64,000 bases of DNA from positions 186,001-250,000 of the forward strand of contig NZ_SOAN01000004.1 of assembly GCF_004364585.1 (NCBI RefSeq), read 5' to 3'. The notes beneath the pieces were generated by a model. The model did no database searches and was not told where the DNA came from. It saw nothing but the letters and a program-made list of their open reading frames with translations. Below, one piece after another: positions 35,258-44,753 of the stretch. The position numbers and the translations under genes were made by a program. How positions within the stretch are numbered: position 1 is the stretch's first letter; every line of letters begins with the position of its first letter. This DNA comes from Nesterenkonia aurantiaca. GTDB lineage: Bacteria; Actinomycetota; Actinomycetes; Actinomycetales; Micrococcaceae.

Positions 35258-35263
35258 AGACTA
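35258..35263 (-). promoter_or_regulatory. -10 box of the voltage-sensor-like gene (leaderless)
   Basis: TAGTCT on the minus strand ends 6 nt before the ATG at 35251 and overlaps the stop region of the HD gene, so this gene likely has its own promoter. Confidence 0.45.
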
Positions 35264-35755
35264 GAGGGGTTCTGAATCTCGCGAGGGAAGCTTCGGTCCG
35301 CCGAGGTGCGCCACGGCGTTGGCGTACTTCGCGGTCAGCCGCTCCTGGGTCGCCGAGTCCAGTGCGGCGAGACGCTCCGCAGAGGTGTTGTCCTGGATGT
35401 CGGCATGCTTGACCACCAGTGACACCTCGCTGAGCAGGACCCGGGCGTAGTAGTCCTCGGGGGCCTCCGCTTCTCGTCGGGTCAGGTGGTCCACGGGCTC
35501 GCTGACGGTGGGACCGAAGGCGGCCCGCAGGTCGGTCAGCGTCACCTCGGTGTCCTCGACGACATCATGCAGCAGCGCGACGGTGCTGTACGGGGGTCCA
35601 TAGCCATTGGCGCGCACGATCCCGGCCACGCGCCGAGGATGGTCGATGTAGGGATTGCCTGCCTTGTCCACCTGACCGCGGTGGGCTAGCTGGGCGATCA
35701 GGTCTGCGGCGGCGTCTTCCGCTGGTCCCGGTGCAGAGGAGTTCTCAATGCTCAT
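35261..35755 (-). CDS. HD-domain phosphohydrolase (SpoT/MESH1-like)
   Basis: A 164-residue HD hydrolase: AHRGQVDKAGNPYIDHPRRVA, then ALLHDVVEDTEVTL, and a late VVKHADIQDN. These match the hydrolase half of RelA/SpoT proteins and small MESH1-like (p)ppGpp hydrolases. No synthetase domain is present, so a small alarmone hydrolase or another nucleotide phosphohydrolase is possible. The frame is open upstream through the tRNA gene; the ATG at 35755 is the sensible start. Confidence 0.82.
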   Translation of the reverse strand: MSIENSSAPGPAEDAAADLIAQLAHRGQVDKAGNPYIDHPRRVAGIVRANGYGPPYSTVALLHDVVEDTEVTLTDLRAAFGPTVSEPVDHLTRREAEAPEDYYARVLLSEVSLVVKHADIQDNTSAERLAALDSATQERLTAKYANAVAHLGGPKLPSRDSEPL

Positions 35756-35921
35756 AGCAATCGGTGTCCGATCTGTTGGGAGACTGGGGTTCAGAGCAGG
35801 ATCGGCGGGTGGCAGCAGCGGCGTCCCGCCCGCTTTCCTCCTGACCGTCCTGAGACTCTCATGACCCTCTGACATGCCGGCCGCATGGCCGAGGTGACGG
35901 CAGCACCGATCCGCAGGCACG
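35756..35921. other. Gene-free spacer between the HD gene and the tRNA-Arg terminator
   Basis: About 166 bp with no credible gene. No operator or repeat stands out. Confidence 0.5.
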
Positions 35922-35961
35922 AAAAAGGTCCGCATCCTTGTTGTGACAAGAATGCGGACCT
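35922..35961 (-). terminator. Rho-independent terminator of tRNA-Arg
   Basis: Stem AGGTCCGCAT paired with ATGCGGACCT around a loop, followed on the minus strand by TTTTT. A textbook intrinsic terminator 12 nt past the tRNA. Confidence 0.85.
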
Positions 35962-35973
35962 GATTTCTCTCTG

Positions 35974-36046
35974 TGCCCCCGGCGGGAATCGAACCCACGA
36001 CTTTTGGTACCGGAAACCAACGCTCTATCCCCTGAGCTACGGAGGC
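35974..36046 (-). tRNA. tRNA-Arg, anticodon CCG
   Basis: 73 nt forming a full cloverleaf on the minus strand. The acceptor stem GCCTCCG pairs with CGGGGGC (one G-U), the anticodon stem TTGGT pairs with ACCAA around the loop TTCCGGT, and the T arm reads GTGGG-TTCGATT-CCCGC. CCA is not encoded. The anticodon CCG reads CGG. In M. tuberculosis a tRNA-Arg sits next to argS; here about 5.4 kb separates them. Confidence 0.97.
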
Positions 36047-36098
36047 CCGCCAGCTGTGCAATTCGAAGACCTGAGTTCCTCGAGCAACTGACCGATTT

Positions 36099-36125: not shown

Positions 36126-36446
36126 CTAGCCGGTCACCGAGGTGGTGTAGCTCCAGAGCTCTGCGGACATGCCCACGGGCTTCTTCGGCGCCTCACCGGC
36201 GGGCGCCTCGCCACCGCTGTGCGACCTCTGGAAGTCCTGGGAGGTGCGCCAGTTCTCGAAGGCCTCCTCGCTGGCCCACCGGGTGATGACCAGCCAGGTG
36301 TGGCGGTCATCGGTGGGCTTGAGCAGCTCAAACCCTTCGAAGCCTTCGGTGCCTTCCATGGAGTCGCGGCGCGCGGCGAACCGCTTGCCGAGCTCGTCGC
36401 CGGAGTCGGCAGGGACGGTGATGGCGTTGATCTTGATGATGCTCAT
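36126..36446 (-). CDS. Antibiotic biosynthesis monooxygenase-fold protein (IsdG/MhuD-like)
   Basis: A 106-residue dimeric alpha-beta barrel protein: MSIIKINAITVPADSGDELGKRF, then GFEGFELLKPTDDRHTWLVITRWASEEAFENWRTS. This is the ABM fold shared by IsdG-type haem degraders. The Asn/Trp/His haem-degradation set is only partly visible (W and H present), so haem oxygenase is likely but unproven. CAGGA lies before the ATG at 36446. The frame continues upstream to 36530 without signals. Lies 46 bp after the gamma-glutamyltransferase-like gene. Confidence 0.78.
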   Translation of the reverse strand: MSIIKINAITVPADSGDELGKRFAARRDSMEGTEGFEGFELLKPTDDRHTWLVITRWASEEAFENWRTSQDFQRSHSGGEAPAGEAPKKPVGMSAELWSYTTSVTG

Positions 36447-36492
36447 GGGGTCATCCTGCCAAAGTCCGCGGCATCCGCACCAGGGGCCCGCG

Positions 36493-38283
36493 TCATCGTC
36501 CCGCCGCGTAACCCTGGGCGCCGCGCGCATTGGCGGCGGCGCGCAGCCGCCCGGTCTCAGGGTCCCGCGTGACGCAGGAGAGCCGGCCCAGCGCCCAGTC
36601 TCCGGCCGTGGTCACCTGGTGTCCCCGTCGGCGCAGCCCCTCGATGAGCTCGGCACCGAGCCGGTCCTCCACCACGGCCCCGCCGGGCTCCCAGGCGCGC
36701 GGCCAGAAGGAGCCGGGCATCGACGTCGTATGCAGGGTGGGTGCGTCGATGGCCTGCTGGGCGGTGTGTCCGCCGATGAGCATGCGCAGCAGCATCGGCA
36801 GCTGCCACTGATCCTGCTGGTCCCCACCGGGGGTGCCCAGGGCGATCAGCGGGGCGCCGCCCTTGAGCACGAGCGTGGGCGTGAGCGTGGTGCGCGGACG
36901 CCTGCCCGGTTCCAGCCGTGAGGCGGAGCGTTCATCGAGCCAGGTCATCTGCAGCCGGGTGCCCAGGCAGAAGCCGAGCCCCTCGATCACCGGCGAGGAC
37001 TGGAGCCATCCCCCGGAGGGGGTCGCCGAGACGATGTTGCCCCAGCGGTCCACCACGTCCAGATGGCAGGTATCACCCTTGGTCTCCCCGGACTTGGACA
37101 CCGTCGGCTCGCCGGCTCCGGCGCCCGTGGCCGCATCGGACACGTGCACCAGCGCCGGCAGCACCTGCTCCTGCCCGGGAACCTCTCCCGGGCGGAACTC
37201 AGCAGAGGCGTGCTCGCTGATCAATTCGCGGCGCTGGGCCGCGTAGGCATTTGAGAGCAGATGCTTCAGGTTCACCGGGACATCTCCGTAGTAGGTGTCA
37301 CGGTCGGCCAGGGCCAGCTTCTGCGCCTCCAGGATCAGGTGGGCGCCGGTCTCGGTGCCGGGATCCAGCTGCTCGTCCGGGTAGCCCTCGAGGATCTTCA
37401 GCGCCTGAAGCAGCGCGGGACCCTGGCCCCAGGGGCCGGACTTCGCGATGGTGTATCCGCGGAATTCGATGGACACCGGGTCTTCGTAGCCAGCGCTGTG
37501 CGAGGCGAAGTCCTCGGCGGTGATCACCCCGGCGTAATCGCCGCCGTCGGAGTGCCGGTGCGGGGTCTTGACGAACTCCGCCGCCGCCTGGGCGACCCGT
37601 CCGGTCTTCCACTCCCCCCGTGCCGCCTCGATCTGCGCGACACGTCCCGAGGCGCCCTCACCGGCGGCGATGAGTTCGCGCAGAACCAGCGCGTATTCGG
37701 GGTTGCGGATGATCTGTCCCGGCTCGGGGACCTTTCCCTCGGGCATCCACAGGGCGGCCGAGGTCGGCCAGTGCTCCTGGAAGAGCTCGGCGACGGCGCG
37801 GATCGCCCGCACCGCGCCGGGCAGGATCGGATGGCCGTGCTCCGCGTAGCCGATGGCGAAGTCGAGCACCTCGGCGAGATCCCAGGTCCCGTGATCGCGC
37901 AGCAGCACCAGCCAGGCGTCGACGGCGGCCGGGACGGCGGCCGCGAGCGCACCGGCGCCGGGGACGTTCTCGAGTCCGAGCGCCCGGTAGTGCTGGATCA
38001 GGGCTCCGGCGGGCGCCGGACCCTGGCCCATGAGCACCTGCGGGTTCGAAGGGGCCCCGGCGGTGGCGAAGATCCCGACCATGTCACCGCCTGGACCGTT
38101 GAGGTGCGGCTCCACCACGTGCAGCACGAAGGCACCGGCCACCGCCGCGTCGAAGGCGTTGCCGCCCCGTTCCAACACCGCCTGCGAGGAGGCGGTGGCG
38201 AGCCAGTGCGTGGAGGCGGTCATTCCGAAGTGGCCCTCCAGCGTGGGCCGGGTGGTGAAGGTCTCGGCGTGGGTGAACGTCAT
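36493..38283 (-). CDS. Gamma-glutamyltransferase family protein
   Basis: A 596-residue Ntn-hydrolase of the GGT/cephalosporin acylase group. It has AVLERGGNAFDAAVAGAF, HLNGPGGDMVGIFA, and the autocleavage nucleophile Thr405 in KGDTCHLDVVDRWGNIVSATPS, splitting large and small subunits. No signal peptide is visible, so it would act in the cytoplasm, unlike secreted GGTs. The ATG at 38283 has AGGAG 5 nt upstream and is preferred over the GTG at 38289, which lies inside that site. Confidence 0.9.
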   Translation of the reverse strand: MTFTHAETFTTRPTLEGHFGMTASTHWLATASSQAVLERGGNAFDAAVAGAFVLHVVEPHLNGPGGDMVGIFATAGAPSNPQVLMGQGPAPAGALIQHYRALGLENVPGAGALAAAVPAAVDAWLVLLRDHGTWDLAEVLDFAIGYAEHGHPILPGAVRAIRAVAELFQEHWPTSAALWMPEGKVPEPGQIIRNPEYALVLRELIAAGEGASGRVAQIEAARGEWKTGRVAQAAAEFVKTPHRHSDGGDYAGVITAEDFASHSAGYEDPVSIEFRGYTIAKSGPWGQGPALLQALKILEGYPDEQLDPGTETGAHLILEAQKLALADRDTYYGDVPVNLKHLLSNAYAAQRRELISEHASAEFRPGEVPGQEQVLPALVHVSDAATGAGAGEPTVSKSGETKGDTCHLDVVDRWGNIVSATPSGGWLQSSPVIEGLGFCLGTRLQMTWLDERSASRLEPGRRPRTTLTPTLVLKGGAPLIALGTPGGDQQDQWQLPMLLRMLIGGHTAQQAIDAPTLHTTSMPGSFWPRAWEPGGAVVEDRLGAELIEGLRRRGHQVTTAGDWALGRLSCVTRDPETGRLRAAANARGAQGYAAGR

Positions 38284-38374
38284 GGGCACTCCTGAGGCGT
38301 CGGTGCGAGGATCGAGCAGACATCCATCCGTCGCTTTAGTTGCTTATGCAAACCAGACTACGGGATGGGCGCAC

Positions 38375-39955
38375 TCAGAAGAGCGCCGGCTGACTCGGCG
38401 CCGCGGCGGCGGTGGTCAGCGCCCCCTGGTTGGGCACCATCTGGTTGGACGCCGTCTCGCCGGGCACCGGGGAGTCCGGGTCCTTCCGCTCCCGCCACAT
38501 CAGGTCTGCGGGCTTGTCGAAGCCATGGCGACGCCGGGCGGTGCGCGCGGAGTCGGCCAGCCAGTGCCGGTATTCCTTCGACGCGTAGGAGCCGCCGCCG
38601 TAGATCCGGCGATACTTCGCCACCAGGGCGGGATACTCGCGGGCCAGCCACGCCATGAACCACTCGCGGGCGCCGGGGCGAAGGTGCAGCGCACCGGTGG
38701 TCACATAGCTGGCGCCGGCCTCGGCAAGTGCGGCATGCAGGGTGTCGATGCGCTCTTCGCCGTCGGTGAGCCAGGGCAGGATGGGCATGGCGAGCACGGA
38801 GCAGTCCAGCCCGGCGTCGGTGATGGAGCGGATCAGGTTCAATCGCGCCCGCGGGTCAGGCGTTCCCGGCTCCACCTTCTGCTGCAGCTCCGGGTCCATG
38901 ACCGCCAGGGAGACTGCGACAGAGACCGACACCTGCTTGGCCGCCTCCTGGAGCAGCGGGAGGTCTCGCTTGAGCAGCGGCCCCTTGGTCAGGATGGAGA
39001 ACGGCGTCCCGGAATCGGCGAGCGCCCGGATGATTCCGGGCATCAGCTGGTAGCGGCCCTCGGCGCGCTGATACGGATCGGTATTCGTCCCCAGCGCCAC
39101 GTGCTCGCGCTTCCACGAGGGCCGATTCACCTCGGCGCGGAGCACCTCGGCGACGTTGGTCTTCACGATGATCTGGGTGTCGAAGTCACGGCCAGCGTCA
39201 AGGTCGAGGTACTCGTGGGTCTTGCGCGCGAAGCAGTTGTGACTGATCACCCCGTTGGCGATGAAGTCACCGGTGCTGGTCGTGATGTCGATCAGAGCCT
39301 CAGTTCGGCCCAGCGCTTCGATGTGGGTGATGCTCAGAGCGTCGCGGGTTTCCACCAGACTTCCCAACAGCGTCGCCTCGACCGCAGTCGCCTCCGGCTC
39401 TGTATACAGCTCGGGAGACATGCCAAGGCCGAACCCCATGAGTCGGTTGTTCACCGTCAGAGAGGGGCGTTGCGAGCCACCCTCCGGCCGAGCCACGTAC
39501 TTCCACCCACGCTCTGTCAGGAACCGATGATCCCCGCTGGCCACGATCTCCGTCCCATCACGGAGCGTGACGCGGAAAGCAGGCTTCTCCGTCCCCCATT
39601 TCGCAGACACGTCCGAGCGGACGAATCGGCGGTACTTGCCGTCGAACTTGGTGCCGACGACGGTGTCGCCCACCAGGACGTCGCGCAGCGGCTTCTGACG
39701 ACCGTCCGCCATGAGGATCAGAGTCTCCGGGCTCAGGCAGTAGACGCACTGGTGGAGACACCCCCGGGTGGGGTTCACGGTCCAGGAGAATGGCATGTTC
39801 GATTGGCCCGGGACCTTGTTGAGCGCGGTCTTCGCCGCCACCTCGTGAAAGGTCACTCCTTCGAACTCCGGGGTGCGCACCGAGCGCATGAGCCCCTTGA
39901 GCGGGATGAGAGCCGTGCCCTCACTCTCCTGCACTGCCTGTCCCTGCCACCTCAT
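38375..39955 (-). CDS. Rv2578c-type radical SAM protein, interrupted by an intein
   Basis: A 526-residue precursor. Host residues 1-72 and 241-526 form a radical SAM enzyme of the Rv2578c family. The Fe4S4 motif CxxxCxxC is Cys66, Cys70 and, after splicing, Cys241. Residues 73-240 are an intein; the spliced enzyme would be 358 residues, close to the family's usual size. Downstream motifs include VALGTNTDPYQRAEGRYQLM and SILTKGPLLKRDL. The M. tuberculosis relative was once named splB by similarity to spore photoproduct lyase, and its reaction is not known to me. An SOS-box-like palindrome sits just upstream, so DNA-damage control is likely. Confidence 0.93.
   Translation of the reverse strand: MRWQGQAVQESEGTALIPLKGLMRSVRTPEFEGVTFHEVAAKTALNKVPGQSNMPFSWTVNPTRGCLHQCVYCLSPETLILMADGRQKPLRDVLVGDTVVGTKFDGKYRRFVRSDVSAKWGTEKPAFRVTLRDGTEIVASGDHRFLTERGWKYVARPEGGSQRPSLTVNNRLMGFGLGMSPELYTEPEATAVEATLLGSLVETRDALSITHIEALGRTEALIDITTSTGDFIANGVISHNCFARKTHEYLDLDAGRDFDTQIIVKTNVAEVLRAEVNRPSWKREHVALGTNTDPYQRAEGRYQLMPGIIRALADSGTPFSILTKGPLLKRDLPLLQEAAKQVSVSVAVSLAVMDPELQQKVEPGTPDPRARLNLIRSITDAGLDCSVLAMPILPWLTDGEERIDTLHAALAEAGASYVTTGALHLRPGAREWFMAWLAREYPALVAKYRRIYGGGSYASKEYRHWLADSARTARRRHGFDKPADLMWRERKDPDSPVPGETASNQMVPNQGALTTAAAAPSQPALF
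39236..39739 (-). other. Intein (168 residues, no homing endonuclease domain seen)
   Basis: Encodes precursor residues Cys73 to Asn240. Block A is CLSPETLILMADG, with DVLVGDTVVG after it. Block B is around EIVASGDHRFLT (the conserved His is in GDH). Block F is LIDITTSTGDFIANG and block G is ISHN followed by Cys241, so the splice residues Cys1, the penultimate His, the final Asn and the +1 Cys are all present. At 168 residues there is no room for a LAGLIDADG nuclease, so it is a mini-intein. Splicing restores the radical SAM CxxxCxxC motif. Confidence 0.93.
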
Positions 39956-39962
39956 GAAGCTA

Positions 39963-39980
39963 TTCGAACATAGTTTCGAA
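39963..39980. promoter_or_regulatory. LexA/SOS-box-like palindrome before the radical SAM gene
   Basis: TTCGAACATAGTTTCGAA contains TCGAAC-N4-TTTCGA, one base from the actinobacterial LexA consensus TCGAAC-N4-GTTCGA. The inverted repeat (7-bp arms ATTCGAA and TTCGAAT) ends 7 nt before the ATG and covers a possible -10 (TATGTT on the minus strand). Confidence 0.7.
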
Positions 39981-39992
39981 TGGGTGTCGAGA

Positions 39993-41075
39993 TCAGCTCA
40001 CCAGCAGCAGCACCGAAACCAGCCCGGTCCCCACCGCCAGCACGGTGCCGCCGGCGCCGAGAAGCAGCGCCGGGCCACCCTCACGCAGCAGTCGTCGCAG
40101 GTCCACCGAGGCCCCGACGCCGACCATTGCGGTGGTCAGAAGCATCGTGGTCACGTCCGCCGCGAAGTCAAGGGTGGGTGCGGGCAGGTCGGTCACCGAG
40201 CGCAGCAGCATCATCGCGAGGAAGCCGAGCACGAAGAGCGGGATCAGCGGCGGCCGCCGCCCCCCGCCCTGATGGTCGGCGGTGATGCGACGACGACGCC
40301 CGGCCAGGCTGATCCCGGCCACCACCGGCGCCAGCAGCACCACCCGGGCCAGCTTCACCAGGGTCGCGGTGGCCAGCGCCGCGGCACCGACCACTCCCCC
40401 GGCGGCGACCACCTGCCCCACCTCGTGGATGCTGGCGCCGATCCAGACACCGAGCTGTTCCTCACCGAGGCCCAGCAGAGCTCCCAGCGCGGGCAGGGCG
40501 AGCAGCGCCAGGGTGCCGTAGAGGGTGACCACGGCAACCGCGGCCGCGGCCGCGGACTGCACCGGGGCGCCGTCGTCGTCCTTGCCGTCACCGCGGTCGA
40601 TCGCCGCTGCGGCAGCGGCAACCGCCGAGGCGCCGCAGATCGCCGTTCCGGTGGCCAGCAGTGTGGTCATTCCCCGCGGGGCACCCAGCAGCCGCCCCAG
40701 ACCGAGCATGCCGAAGAAGGTCACCCCGACGGCGAGTACCACGACGGCGAGCACCTGCCAGCCCAGGCCGAGCAGGTCTCCCAGGGCAAGCTGGAGTCCG
40801 AGCAGCACGATGCCCGCGCGGAGCAGCGTCTTGGCCGCCCAGCCGAGGCCTCGCTCCGCCCAGGCCGGTACCCAGCCCAGGCTGCGCAGCGCGATCCCGG
40901 CCAGCACGGCGATCAGCAGTCCGGAGACCACCGGGATCAGCTCGGCGATCAGCCGATGTGCGGCGATCGCGATGATCAGCGCCAGCGCGATCCCGGGAAG
41001 GATCAGCGCGGTCTCGCGCCAGACACGCGCGAGCCTCGAGGTCAGGGCGGTGGTCAGGGCGGAGAGGGGAGGCAC
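39993..41075 (-). CDS. YeiH/UPF0324 family putative sulfate exporter
   Basis: A 360-residue membrane protein with about ten helices. Family motifs seen are LLRAGIVLLGLQLALGDLLGLG, TAICGASAVAAAAAAI, and ASIHEVGQVVAAGG. YeiH-type proteins are called putative sulfate exporters by homology only. The GTG at 41075 is chosen because a TATGCT -10 box lies 6 nt before it. The frame is open further but overlaps the divergent tgt promoter and has no signals. Confidence 0.85.
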   Translation of the reverse strand: MPPLSALTTALTSRLARVWRETALILPGIALALIIAIAAHRLIAELIPVVSGLLIAVLAGIALRSLGWVPAWAERGLGWAAKTLLRAGIVLLGLQLALGDLLGLGWQVLAVVVLAVGVTFFGMLGLGRLLGAPRGMTTLLATGTAICGASAVAAAAAAIDRGDGKDDDGAPVQSAAAAAVAVVTLYGTLALLALPALGALLGLGEEQLGVWIGASIHEVGQVVAAGGVVGAAALATATLVKLARVVLLAPVVAGISLAGRRRRITADHQGGGRRPPLIPLFVLGFLAMMLLRSVTDLPAPTLDFAADVTTMLLTTAMVGVGASVDLRRLLREGGPALLLGAGGTVLAVGTGLVSVLLLVS

Positions 41076-41081
41076 CGGATA

Positions 41082-41087
41082 AGCATA
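41082..41087 (-). promoter_or_regulatory. -10 box of the YeiH-type gene (leaderless)
   Basis: TATGCT on the minus strand ends 6 nt before the GTG at 41075, back to back with the tgt promoter. Confidence 0.45.
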
Positions 41088-41098
41088 GGACCCTGGCC

Positions 41099-42442
<1,344 letters not shown>

Positions 42443-42668
42443 GCCGGCGGACCCCGAGTCAGACTTGGCACCCTGCCGGACAGGTCAGCTCCCTGGCCTG
42501 ACTGAGAGCTGAGGACGAGTCACTCATCCCTGCTCAGCGCGTCATGCGACCCTCGGCCTGAAGTTGCGCAATCGAACCACTTGAGGTGCACTGAGTCACA
42601 GCTCTTTGGCCTGCAGAACCTTTCGGCCAACGCCTCAGCACCGTCAGGATCGATCTAGGCAGGACCAT
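42443..42668. other. 226-bp spacer between tgt and the acyltransferase gene
   Basis: No gene is supported. It includes short imperfect inverted segments (GGTCAGctcc...GGCCTGAC) that could terminate tgt but are too weak to call. Confidence 0.45.
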
Positions 42669-44753
42669 TTGCGCCAACCCCCACCCGCGAGCGGTCACGC
42701 TCCACCCCTTGACCGCCACGCCTCCTGGGCGGCCCCGGAACGCCGTTATCGACCCGAGATCCACGGTCTGCGCGGCTTCGCGATCCTCGGAGTCGTGCTC
42801 TTCCACCTCTTCGGCGCGGGCAGAGTCTCCGGCGGCATCGACATCTTCTTGGCGATCTCCGGGTTCCTCTTCACCGCCATGCTGTTGCGCGAAGCAGTCG
42901 AGAGCGGCGGCACGATCCGCGTGGGCAGGTACCTGGCACGGCTCGCGAGACGGCTGCTTCCGGCGGCGGCGCTGGTCATCCTGGTCACCACACTGGCCGG
43001 GCTGCTCCTGTTCCCAGAGACCCGGCATGCTCAGCTTCTATCCGAGGCCCGGGCCTCCCTGCTCTACTTCGAGAACCTCGAGCTGATCCGCTCGCAGCTG
43101 AGCTACGGGGCCGCCGGTCCAGAGACGAGCCCTTTCCAGCACTTCTGGTCGCTCTCCGTGCAGGGCCAGTTCTACCTTCTCTGGCCCCTGGTGGCGCTGA
43201 CAGCAGTGCTCCTGGCCAAACGGGCTGGACGCAGCCCGATCCTGGTCATGGGGGTGATGACCGGCCTCATCGTCGTGGTCTCGTTCGGCTACGCCGTCTA
43301 CATGGGCGGGGTCAGTCAGGACGAGGCGTATCTGATGACGCGGACCCGCTTCTGGGAACTCGGCTTCGGTGGGCTGCTGGCGCTGCTGGGCTCCACACTG
43401 ACGCTGCCGCGCCGCTGGCGCCGACCGGCCGGCTGGGCCGGCGTCGCCCTCATCATCACCACCGGATTCCTGCTCGACGGTGCGGCGCTGTTCCCCGGCC
43501 CGTGGGCGTTGTGGCCACTGCTGGGCATGGCACTTGTCCTGGCCGCCGCCGGTCCCGGGGGTGGTGCGAAGGACCCCGTCGCGACGGCGACCCGAGTGCT
43601 CTCGGCGCACCTCTTCACCTGGGTCGGCGATCGCGCCTACGCCCTCTACCTCTGGCATTGGCCGCTGTTGATCTTCTACCTCGAGATCAGGGAGCGCCCT
43701 GGACTGGGGGTCGGTGGTGCGATGATCGTCCTGGCCGCGTCTCTGGTGCTGGCGGTGCTGACCCACCGGTGGGTGGAGCGCCCGGTGACCCGCGTCTCCG
43801 CCCGCATCTCCCTGCGAGTGCCCCTGGCGATGGCGGCGACGGTGCTGCTGATCGGCGGCTCCGCGAGCAGCTACGCCATCCACCAGATCGATCTCCAGCG
43901 CAGCGGGGCCCCGTCCCTGGCGGAGCTTGATCATCAGGACTATCCGGGGGCACTGGCCACGCTGGCCGACACCGATGCCCCGAAGAACGTGGACTTCGTC
44001 CCCGATCTGCAGACCCTGGCGCAGAGCCGGCCGGACTACTACGACTGGGGATGCCGACAGGAGATCGGTGACGGGCCGGGCCGCGGCGAGGTTCTGGTGT
44101 GCGTAGACCCGGACAGACCCGCTGACCCGGACCTGACCGTGATGATCACCGGAGGCTCACACGCGGGGCAGTGGCACCACGCCTGGAGGATGCTGGCGGC
44201 GCAGAACAACTGGGAGCTGCTGATCGCCGATAAGTCGGCCTGCATCTTCACGGAGGCCTCGGACCCCGAGAATAACCAGTGCCACGAATGGAACCTCAAC
44301 CTGCTCGACGTGGTCTCCGAGCGCGAACCGGACCTGGTGTTCACCGCCGGCACCCGGGTGCCCAACGACGGCAGCCCGGAGAACATCCAGCCAGGGGCCC
44401 CGCAGAAGTGGCAGCAGATCATGGACCGCGGCTCCGAGGTGCTGCTGATGCGCGGGACCCCGCGGCGCGAGGACTCGGTGGCTGACTGTCTCGCCCAGGA
44501 CGGGGACGCCGAGGCCTGCGGGATGGACCCGATCAGCTACCGGGACACCAACCCGCTCACCACACCCGACCTGCCCGAGGGCTTGTTCACCGTGGACATG
44601 ACCGAGCACCTGTGTTTCGAGCAGATCTGCCCGGCGGTGATCGGCAATATCGCGGTGTACTACGACCAGAGTCACCTTTCGAACCACTACGTGGAATCCA
44701 TGGCGCCGTTGCTGGAGGCGAAGCTCCGCGAGGCGATGCCACACCTGTTCTGA
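42669..44753 (+). CDS. OafA-like acyltransferase with SGNH domain
   Basis: A roughly 694-residue protein. The N-terminal 350 residues form a ten-helix acyltransferase-3 domain (PEIHGLRGFAILGVVLFHLF; later YALYLWHWPLLIFYLE). The C-terminal 300 residues are an outward SGNH domain with MITGGSHAGQW (Ser) and YYDQSHLSNHYV (Asp/His). Such fusions O-acetylate cell-wall or surface glycans such as peptidoglycan. Two TTG starts compete (42606, 42669). I favour 42669, which has AGGA 4 nt upstream, though the spacing is short. Confidence 0.88.
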   Translation: MRQPPPASGHAPPLDRHASWAAPERRYRPEIHGLRGFAILGVVLFHLFGAGRVSGGIDIFLAISGFLFTAMLLREAVESGGTIRVGRYLARLARRLLPAAALVILVTTLAGLLLFPETRHAQLLSEARASLLYFENLELIRSQLSYGAAGPETSPFQHFWSLSVQGQFYLLWPLVALTAVLLAKRAGRSPILVMGVMTGLIVVVSFGYAVYMGGVSQDEAYLMTRTRFWELGFGGLLALLGSTLTLPRRWRRPAGWAGVALIITTGFLLDGAALFPGPWALWPLLGMALVLAAAGPGGGAKDPVATATRVLSAHLFTWVGDRAYALYLWHWPLLIFYLEIRERPGLGVGGAMIVLAASLVLAVLTHRWVERPVTRVSARISLRVPLAMAATVLLIGGSASSYAIHQIDLQRSGAPSLAELDHQDYPGALATLADTDAPKNVDFVPDLQTLAQSRPDYYDWGCRQEIGDGPGRGEVLVCVDPDRPADPDLTVMITGGSHAGQWHHAWRMLAAQNNWELLIADKSACIFTEASDPENNQCHEWNLNLLDVVSEREPDLVFTAGTRVPNDGSPENIQPGAPQKWQQIMDRGSEVLLMRGTPRREDSVADCLAQDGDAEACGMDPISYRDTNPLTTPDLPEGLFTVDMTEHLCFEQICPAVIGNIAVYYDQSHLSNHYVESMAPLLEAKLREAMPHLF

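Follow-up and report, generated by a model that had tools for sequence, protein, structure and literature searches.

The intein considered here interrupts an Rv2578c-family radical S-adenosylmethionine (SAM) protein of Nesterenkonia aurantiaca, encoded in a 64,000-nucleotide stretch of contig NZ_SOAN01000004.1 (positions 186,001 to 250,000, hereafter the window). The closest described system is NCBIfam family NF038136 (intein-containing Rv2578c family radical SAM protein), which has the same host and the same intein as the window protein. Because NCBIfam models it, the class is known to curators, as an earlier sequence-only reading of the window had stated. With 574 positions, the NF038136 profile exceeds the extein family model NF038135 (317 positions) by 257, which implies a consensus intein longer than the 168 residues found here. 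A literature search, with subscription journals mostly outside its reach, found no title or abstract opening on an intein at the Rv2578c site. According to the available portions of PMC3922620 and PMC10663303, which relay Callahan 2011, the intein of Pyrococcus abyssi MoaA also lies in a radical SAM enzyme and also combines a cysteine at position -3 with Cys1. MoaA is archaeal and belongs to another enzyme family, and a redox block has been reported for its intein. Fungal PRP8 inteins, in the accessible part of PMC1508164, likewise occur at a single allelic site that can be empty or hold a full-length or a mini form, and several mini-inteins are among them; that account reports neither intermediate-length alleles nor remnants of the endonuclease, whereas several such alleles occur among the Rv2578c-site inteins. 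The DnaB inteins (Npu, Ssp) rank first by sequence among Protein Data Bank (PDB) entries (4o1r) and are tied best by fold, but differ in host and site.

The window intein is best read as a class 1 cis-splicing mini-intein, most likely the product of an in-frame internal deletion in a LAGLIDADG homing intein, and a probability of about 0.9 is assigned to this reading. The features of the locus, all on the minus strand, are as follows.

38375..39955, minus strand: precursor gene of an intein-containing Rv2578c-family radical SAM protein, 526 residues (open reading frame and profile matches)
39740..39955, minus strand: N-extein, residues 1-72, with Cys66 (codon 39758-39760) and Cys70 (codon 39746-39748; position -3 to the junction)
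39236..39739, minus strand: putative class 1 mini-intein with Cys1, residues 73-240 (168 residues)
39737..39739, minus strand: Cys73, intein Cys1 and third CxxxCxxC position of the precursor
39527..39538, minus strand: block B, S-G-D-H, residues 140-143, with Ser in place of the usual Thr
39362..39406, minus strand: region that holds the LAGLIDADG endonuclease in full-length alleles (bounds approximate; the window intein is 180 codons shorter than relative L002)
39236..39289, minus strand: blocks F and G, Asp223 to His239-Asn240
39233..39235, minus strand: Cys241, +1 nucleophile and predicted third cluster cysteine of the spliced enzyme
38375..39235, minus strand: C-extein, the rest of the radical SAM domain and the tail, 286 residues (coordinates include the stop codon)

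The precursor scored 753.8 bits against NF038136 (curated cut-off 700) and 514 bits against NF038135 (cut-off 430), TIGR01445 (intein_Nterm) matched residues 73-147, and the Pfam Radical_SAM domain (PF04055) was found at 44.4 bits (cut-off 29.5). The sequence-only reading had placed the intein at 39236..39739, which was correct to the base and to the residue. In the translation, Cys73 is both the first intein residue and the third cysteine of CxxxCxxC, after Cys66 and Cys70, as had been claimed. Joining the exteins would restore the motif as CLHQCVYC, followed by FARKTHEYL, with Cys241 in the third position, again in agreement with that reading. The only cysteines of the precursor are residues 66, 70, 73, 241 and 385, so that the intein holds one (Cys73). 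The precursor fold weakly resembled spore photoproduct lyase (4fhc, expect value (E) 1.4e-6, 17% identity), and no PDB sequence matched the C-extein at E 0.1.

The residues expected of a class 1 intein were present: C1, H71, D151 and H167-N168 (intein numbering), together with Cys241, so the splicing residues listed in the sequence-only reading are all in place. S140, D142 and H143 of block B were invariant in a 47-row alignment (A2). The predicted structure has the Hedgehog/intein (HINT) fold, with its lowest model confidence within the intein at residues 116-120 (intein numbering), in the region of the endonuclease deletion. The DnaB inteins (Npu, Ssp) were tied as best fold matches with gp41-1, BIL2 and Mtu RecA. 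As bacterial intein-like (BIL) and hedgehog domains share the HINT fold and appear among these matches, the insert might instead be a domain of either type that cleaves rather than splices. This is extremely unlikely, as a His-Asn end followed by Cys+1 was found in 128 of 128 intein rows, homologous extein lies on both sides, and precise empty sites exist.

These rows came from two sources. GTDB genomes were scanned for relatives of the intein; at least 473 were found, and the best 80, ranked by likeness to a mini-intein, were kept; a further 48 rows brought the total to 128, and as six inteins were in both sets, 122 were distinct. One locus, L011, was left out (same gene as L001), and L102 with L103 (one intein over two contigs) and L108 were left unclassified. 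C1, the block B His, the block F Asp and the terminal His-Asn were kept in all 122 distinct inteins. In 80 of the 80 best relatives the insert began at the third CxxxCxxC cysteine, Cys-3, Cys1, His-Asn and Cys+1 were all kept, and the frame was open through the intein and both junctions; the residue at position -1 was Tyr in 79 and Phe in one. The same four positions were kept in 48 of the 48 other rows, which were selected by a pattern already requiring Cys-3, and position -1 was Tyr in 47 of them and His in one.

The hosts of the best 80 include Nesterenkonia, Microbacterium, Cryobacterium, Promicromonospora, Agromyces, Blastococcus and Plantactinospora, and in the nearest of them, from Nesterenkonia sp. 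E16_10, the intein shares 89% identity with that of the window. At least 33 further intein genes (L040-L065, L068-L074), and one split over two contigs, were found among 396 sampled genomes of the phylum. Thirty of the 58 related genomes examined belong to the window's genus, Nesterenkonia (Micrococcaceae); six intein sequences from these congeners match Nesterenkonia records exactly. The intein was present in 15 of these and the site was empty in 14, with a broken frame in one of the latter (L039, genome G016); the one remaining genome, 82% complete, had no match.

The same cysteine was also occupied in a sister family. Nine of 126 intein rows (L059-L065, L164 and L179) had hosts closer by score to the PA0069-type L164 (a member of this group) than to the window protein; L074 and L180, whose C-exteins are short, were skipped in this comparison. 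Three of the nine were tested against family models, and all three were over the cut-off of NF033668 (PA0069 family) and under that of NF038136. One intein therefore holds the same cysteine in two sister families. L164 and L179 are contigs of metagenome-assembled genomes labelled Delta- and Betaproteobacteria, for which mis-binning is possible.

In intein-free relatives the homologous extein runs on across the insert site. Fifty-six empty loci were read, and base-exact empty sites were identified in four near pairs. In one of these pairs, locus L017, with a 164-residue intein, and L036, with none, the N-extein DNA was 96% identical and the C-extein DNA 90% identical over 300 bases. On an extein tree of 35 rows, the distribution of intein and empty sites required eight changes, four of them forced. 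In the seven of nine pairs with computable rates, the ratio of nonsynonymous to synonymous change (dN/dS) was 0.135-0.397 for the intein and 0.024-0.057 for the extein; intein dS was saturated in two of the nine. These ratios indicate that the intein is constrained, and splicing is therefore probably maintained by selection, with the intein far freer to evolve than the enzyme.

The statement of the sequence-only reading that 168 residues leave no room for an endonuclease held up: a search of the window intein at E 0.01 gave no LAGLIDADG match, while relative L002 (348 residues, 180 codons longer) had one and was over the cut-off of PF14528 (LAGLIDADG_3), which the window intein was not. Full-length alleles have 341-355 residues and carry two LAGLIDADG motifs, GYLxGMIRGDG and GFLAGIFDAEG; the Asp of the first was kept in 61 of 61 full-length rows, and the second read DAE in 60 of the 61. 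Between the two forms were alleles of 318, 312, 300, 288, 228, 199, 188, 185, 181 and 176 residues, each from one assembly, which differ in the pieces of the endonuclease region that they keep. The motif acids were partly altered in the 288-, 300- and 312-residue alleles. Intermediates of endonuclease loss with an open frame include the following.

L157:2675-3358, 228 residues
L135:4001-4597, 199 residues
L126:4001-4543, 181 residues
L184:2053-3006, 318 residues

By size, the 128 rows comprised 63 mini (<240 residues), 4 partial and 61 full-length inteins, a split that is biased because 80 of the rows are those most like a mini-intein of at least 473. On a splicing-domain tree of the 122 inteins, a quick tree with 57 of 118 inner branches open, the mini label needed 31 changes, at least six of them forced by starred branches. 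A more careful tree of 48 inteins, whose bootstrap had not settled, needed six changes, four of them forced. A single origin of all mini-inteins was rejected in view of the forced changes on both intein trees and of the differing remnants. Because deletion points differ and intermediates exist, the endonuclease appears to have been lost repeatedly, and the window copy is most likely the deleted form of a full-length allele. The L001-type and L012/L014-type deletions each remove 180 codons compared with a near full-length relative, and the extein and intein trees disagree on whether they were one event or two.

Several points weigh against this account. The usual Thr of block B (TXXH) is replaced by Ser, a conservative change at a position where Thr is highly conserved but not strictly defining. 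A His is common in block F and is missing here. The general Pfam Intein_splicing model gave the intein alone 32.2 bits, below its gathering score of 35.8, and a search of the organism's own genome with PF14890 found no intein, not even that of the window, which makes PF14890 a poor probe; a TIGR01445 search of the same genome matched only the window intein. The loop after Cys241 is weak in the model, perhaps due to the shallow alignment (45 rows, all intein-bearing). The direction from full-length to mini would follow from the shared, homologous endonuclease, as the trees are unrooted and do not show it. Finally, no splicing data were found for the window protein, which, together with the Ser in block B, would suit an intein that no longer splices, leaving a pseudogene or a bifunctional unspliced protein. 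This is very improbable given that junction and catalytic positions are kept, that the frame is open across intein and junctions in all 80 loci, and that intein and extein are both under purifying selection in the seven pairs noted above.

The site, junction residues, predicted fold, size series, distribution and constraint are compatible with the following course for the cis-splicing mini-intein. In Rv2578c/PA0069-type radical SAM genes, the codons of the best-conserved segment would have been the target of the ancestral endonuclease. Once the precursor is translated, its intein would adopt the HINT fold and Cys73 would attack the Tyr72-Cys73 bond (N-S shift); the N-extein would pass to Cys241, Asn240 would cyclise, and Tyr72 would be joined to Cys241, which would then serve as the third [4Fe-4S] ligand. 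Splicing would be needed for activity because the precursor is probably unable to form the normal cluster loop. Without the endonuclease, inheritance of the intein would be mostly passive, and it would persist because an inexact deletion would ruin the cluster motif.

The spacing of three residues between Cys-3 and Cys1 probably makes splicing sensitive to oxidation or thiophilic metals, and this sensitivity is more likely a by-product of the site than evolved control. An evolved redox or metal switch, an idea raised by the sequence-only reading, would work through an oxidised Cys70 (-3)-Cys73 (1) disulfide, or through Fe or Zn held by Cys66, Cys70 and Cys73, either of which would block the first splicing step, so that the oxygen-labile enzyme would be released only in a reducing cytosol. 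Such a switch is chemically plausible by analogy with P. abyssi MoaA, a precedent that the sequence-only reading had not named, in which, according to the portions of PMC3922620 and PMC10663303 available, splicing is blocked by a disulfide that Cys1 forms with a cysteine of the N-extein (Cys-3, according to one of the two) and is released by reduction. The MoaA intein presumably starts at the third motif cysteine, where the CxxxCxxC rule and a spacing of -3 to 1 would place it. Zinc reversibly inhibits splicing of mycobacterial DnaB, according to the title of another paper. The residue pair of the MoaA trap, a cysteine at -3 together with Cys1, is present here (Cys70 and Cys73) and in both sets of relatives (80/80 and 48/48). 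This conservation was rejected as evidence for a switch, because the enzyme and the splicing chemistry between them dictate Cys-3, Cys1 and Cys+1. The switch appears unlikely in view of the 14 of 30 Nesterenkonia genomes that keep the gene without the intein (one with a broken frame), including L036, close to L017. In Streptomyces, according to the part of PMC12924846 available, a prophage inactivates the orthologous gene, a loss that the authors suggest carries no significant fitness cost; the serine integrase of Streptomyces phage Samy also targets an Rv2578c-family gene. A wider proposal is more doubtful: different inteins may have settled repeatedly at the third radical SAM cysteine (archaeal MoaA, actinobacterial Rv2578c and PA0069), with the -3 ligand making each a redox or iron sensor, and endonuclease-free, constrained alleles persisting because the gate protects an oxygen-labile enzyme.

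A phage or plasmid origin was considered and set aside: no relative was found in viral contigs, and none of the matching phage records or of the 20 plasmid records examined clearly carried this intein. Seven records of annotated phages matched. In six of these the match was confined to the C-extein side; two of the six are annotated as radical SAM proteins, one as hypothetical, and three carry no annotation. The terminase large subunit of Oceanotoga phage vB_OteS-UFV02 (OR420712.1, 42589-43212, minus strand) matched residues 52-278 at 28% identity (E 2e-8); the match spans the intein and may mark a distant intein in the terminase. Among the 20 of 37 plasmid records examined, 4 aligned to the two extein sides as separate pieces and 16 aligned from residue 241 onward, with the intein in none.

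A 647-codon open frame (38030-39973, plus strand) lies antisense to the whole radical SAM gene and probably merely reflects high G+C content. The neighbours at 36126-38289 (minus strand) and 39993-44753 encode antibiotic biosynthesis monooxygenase-like, gamma-glutamyltransferase-like and YeiH-type (Cons_hypoth698) proteins, the tRNA-guanine transglycosylase Tgt and an acyltransferase with an SGNH domain, and give no hint at the role of the radical SAM enzyme. PADLOC gave no match for a defence role. The start of a listed HD-domain frame (35261-36061, minus strand) overlaps a tRNA-Arg gene (35973-36046, minus strand), so its true start probably lies further downstream.

The locus offers a bacterial parallel to the redox trap of MoaA: one motif contains both the catalytic intein cysteine and two cluster ligands, and this shared motif makes a sensor role of inteins at such sites directly testable. 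The allelic series of empty, full-length, decaying and mini forms can show the stepwise trimming of a homing intein, and its intermediates are a useful addition because the PRP8 study, in the part of PMC1508164 available, states that none were seen.
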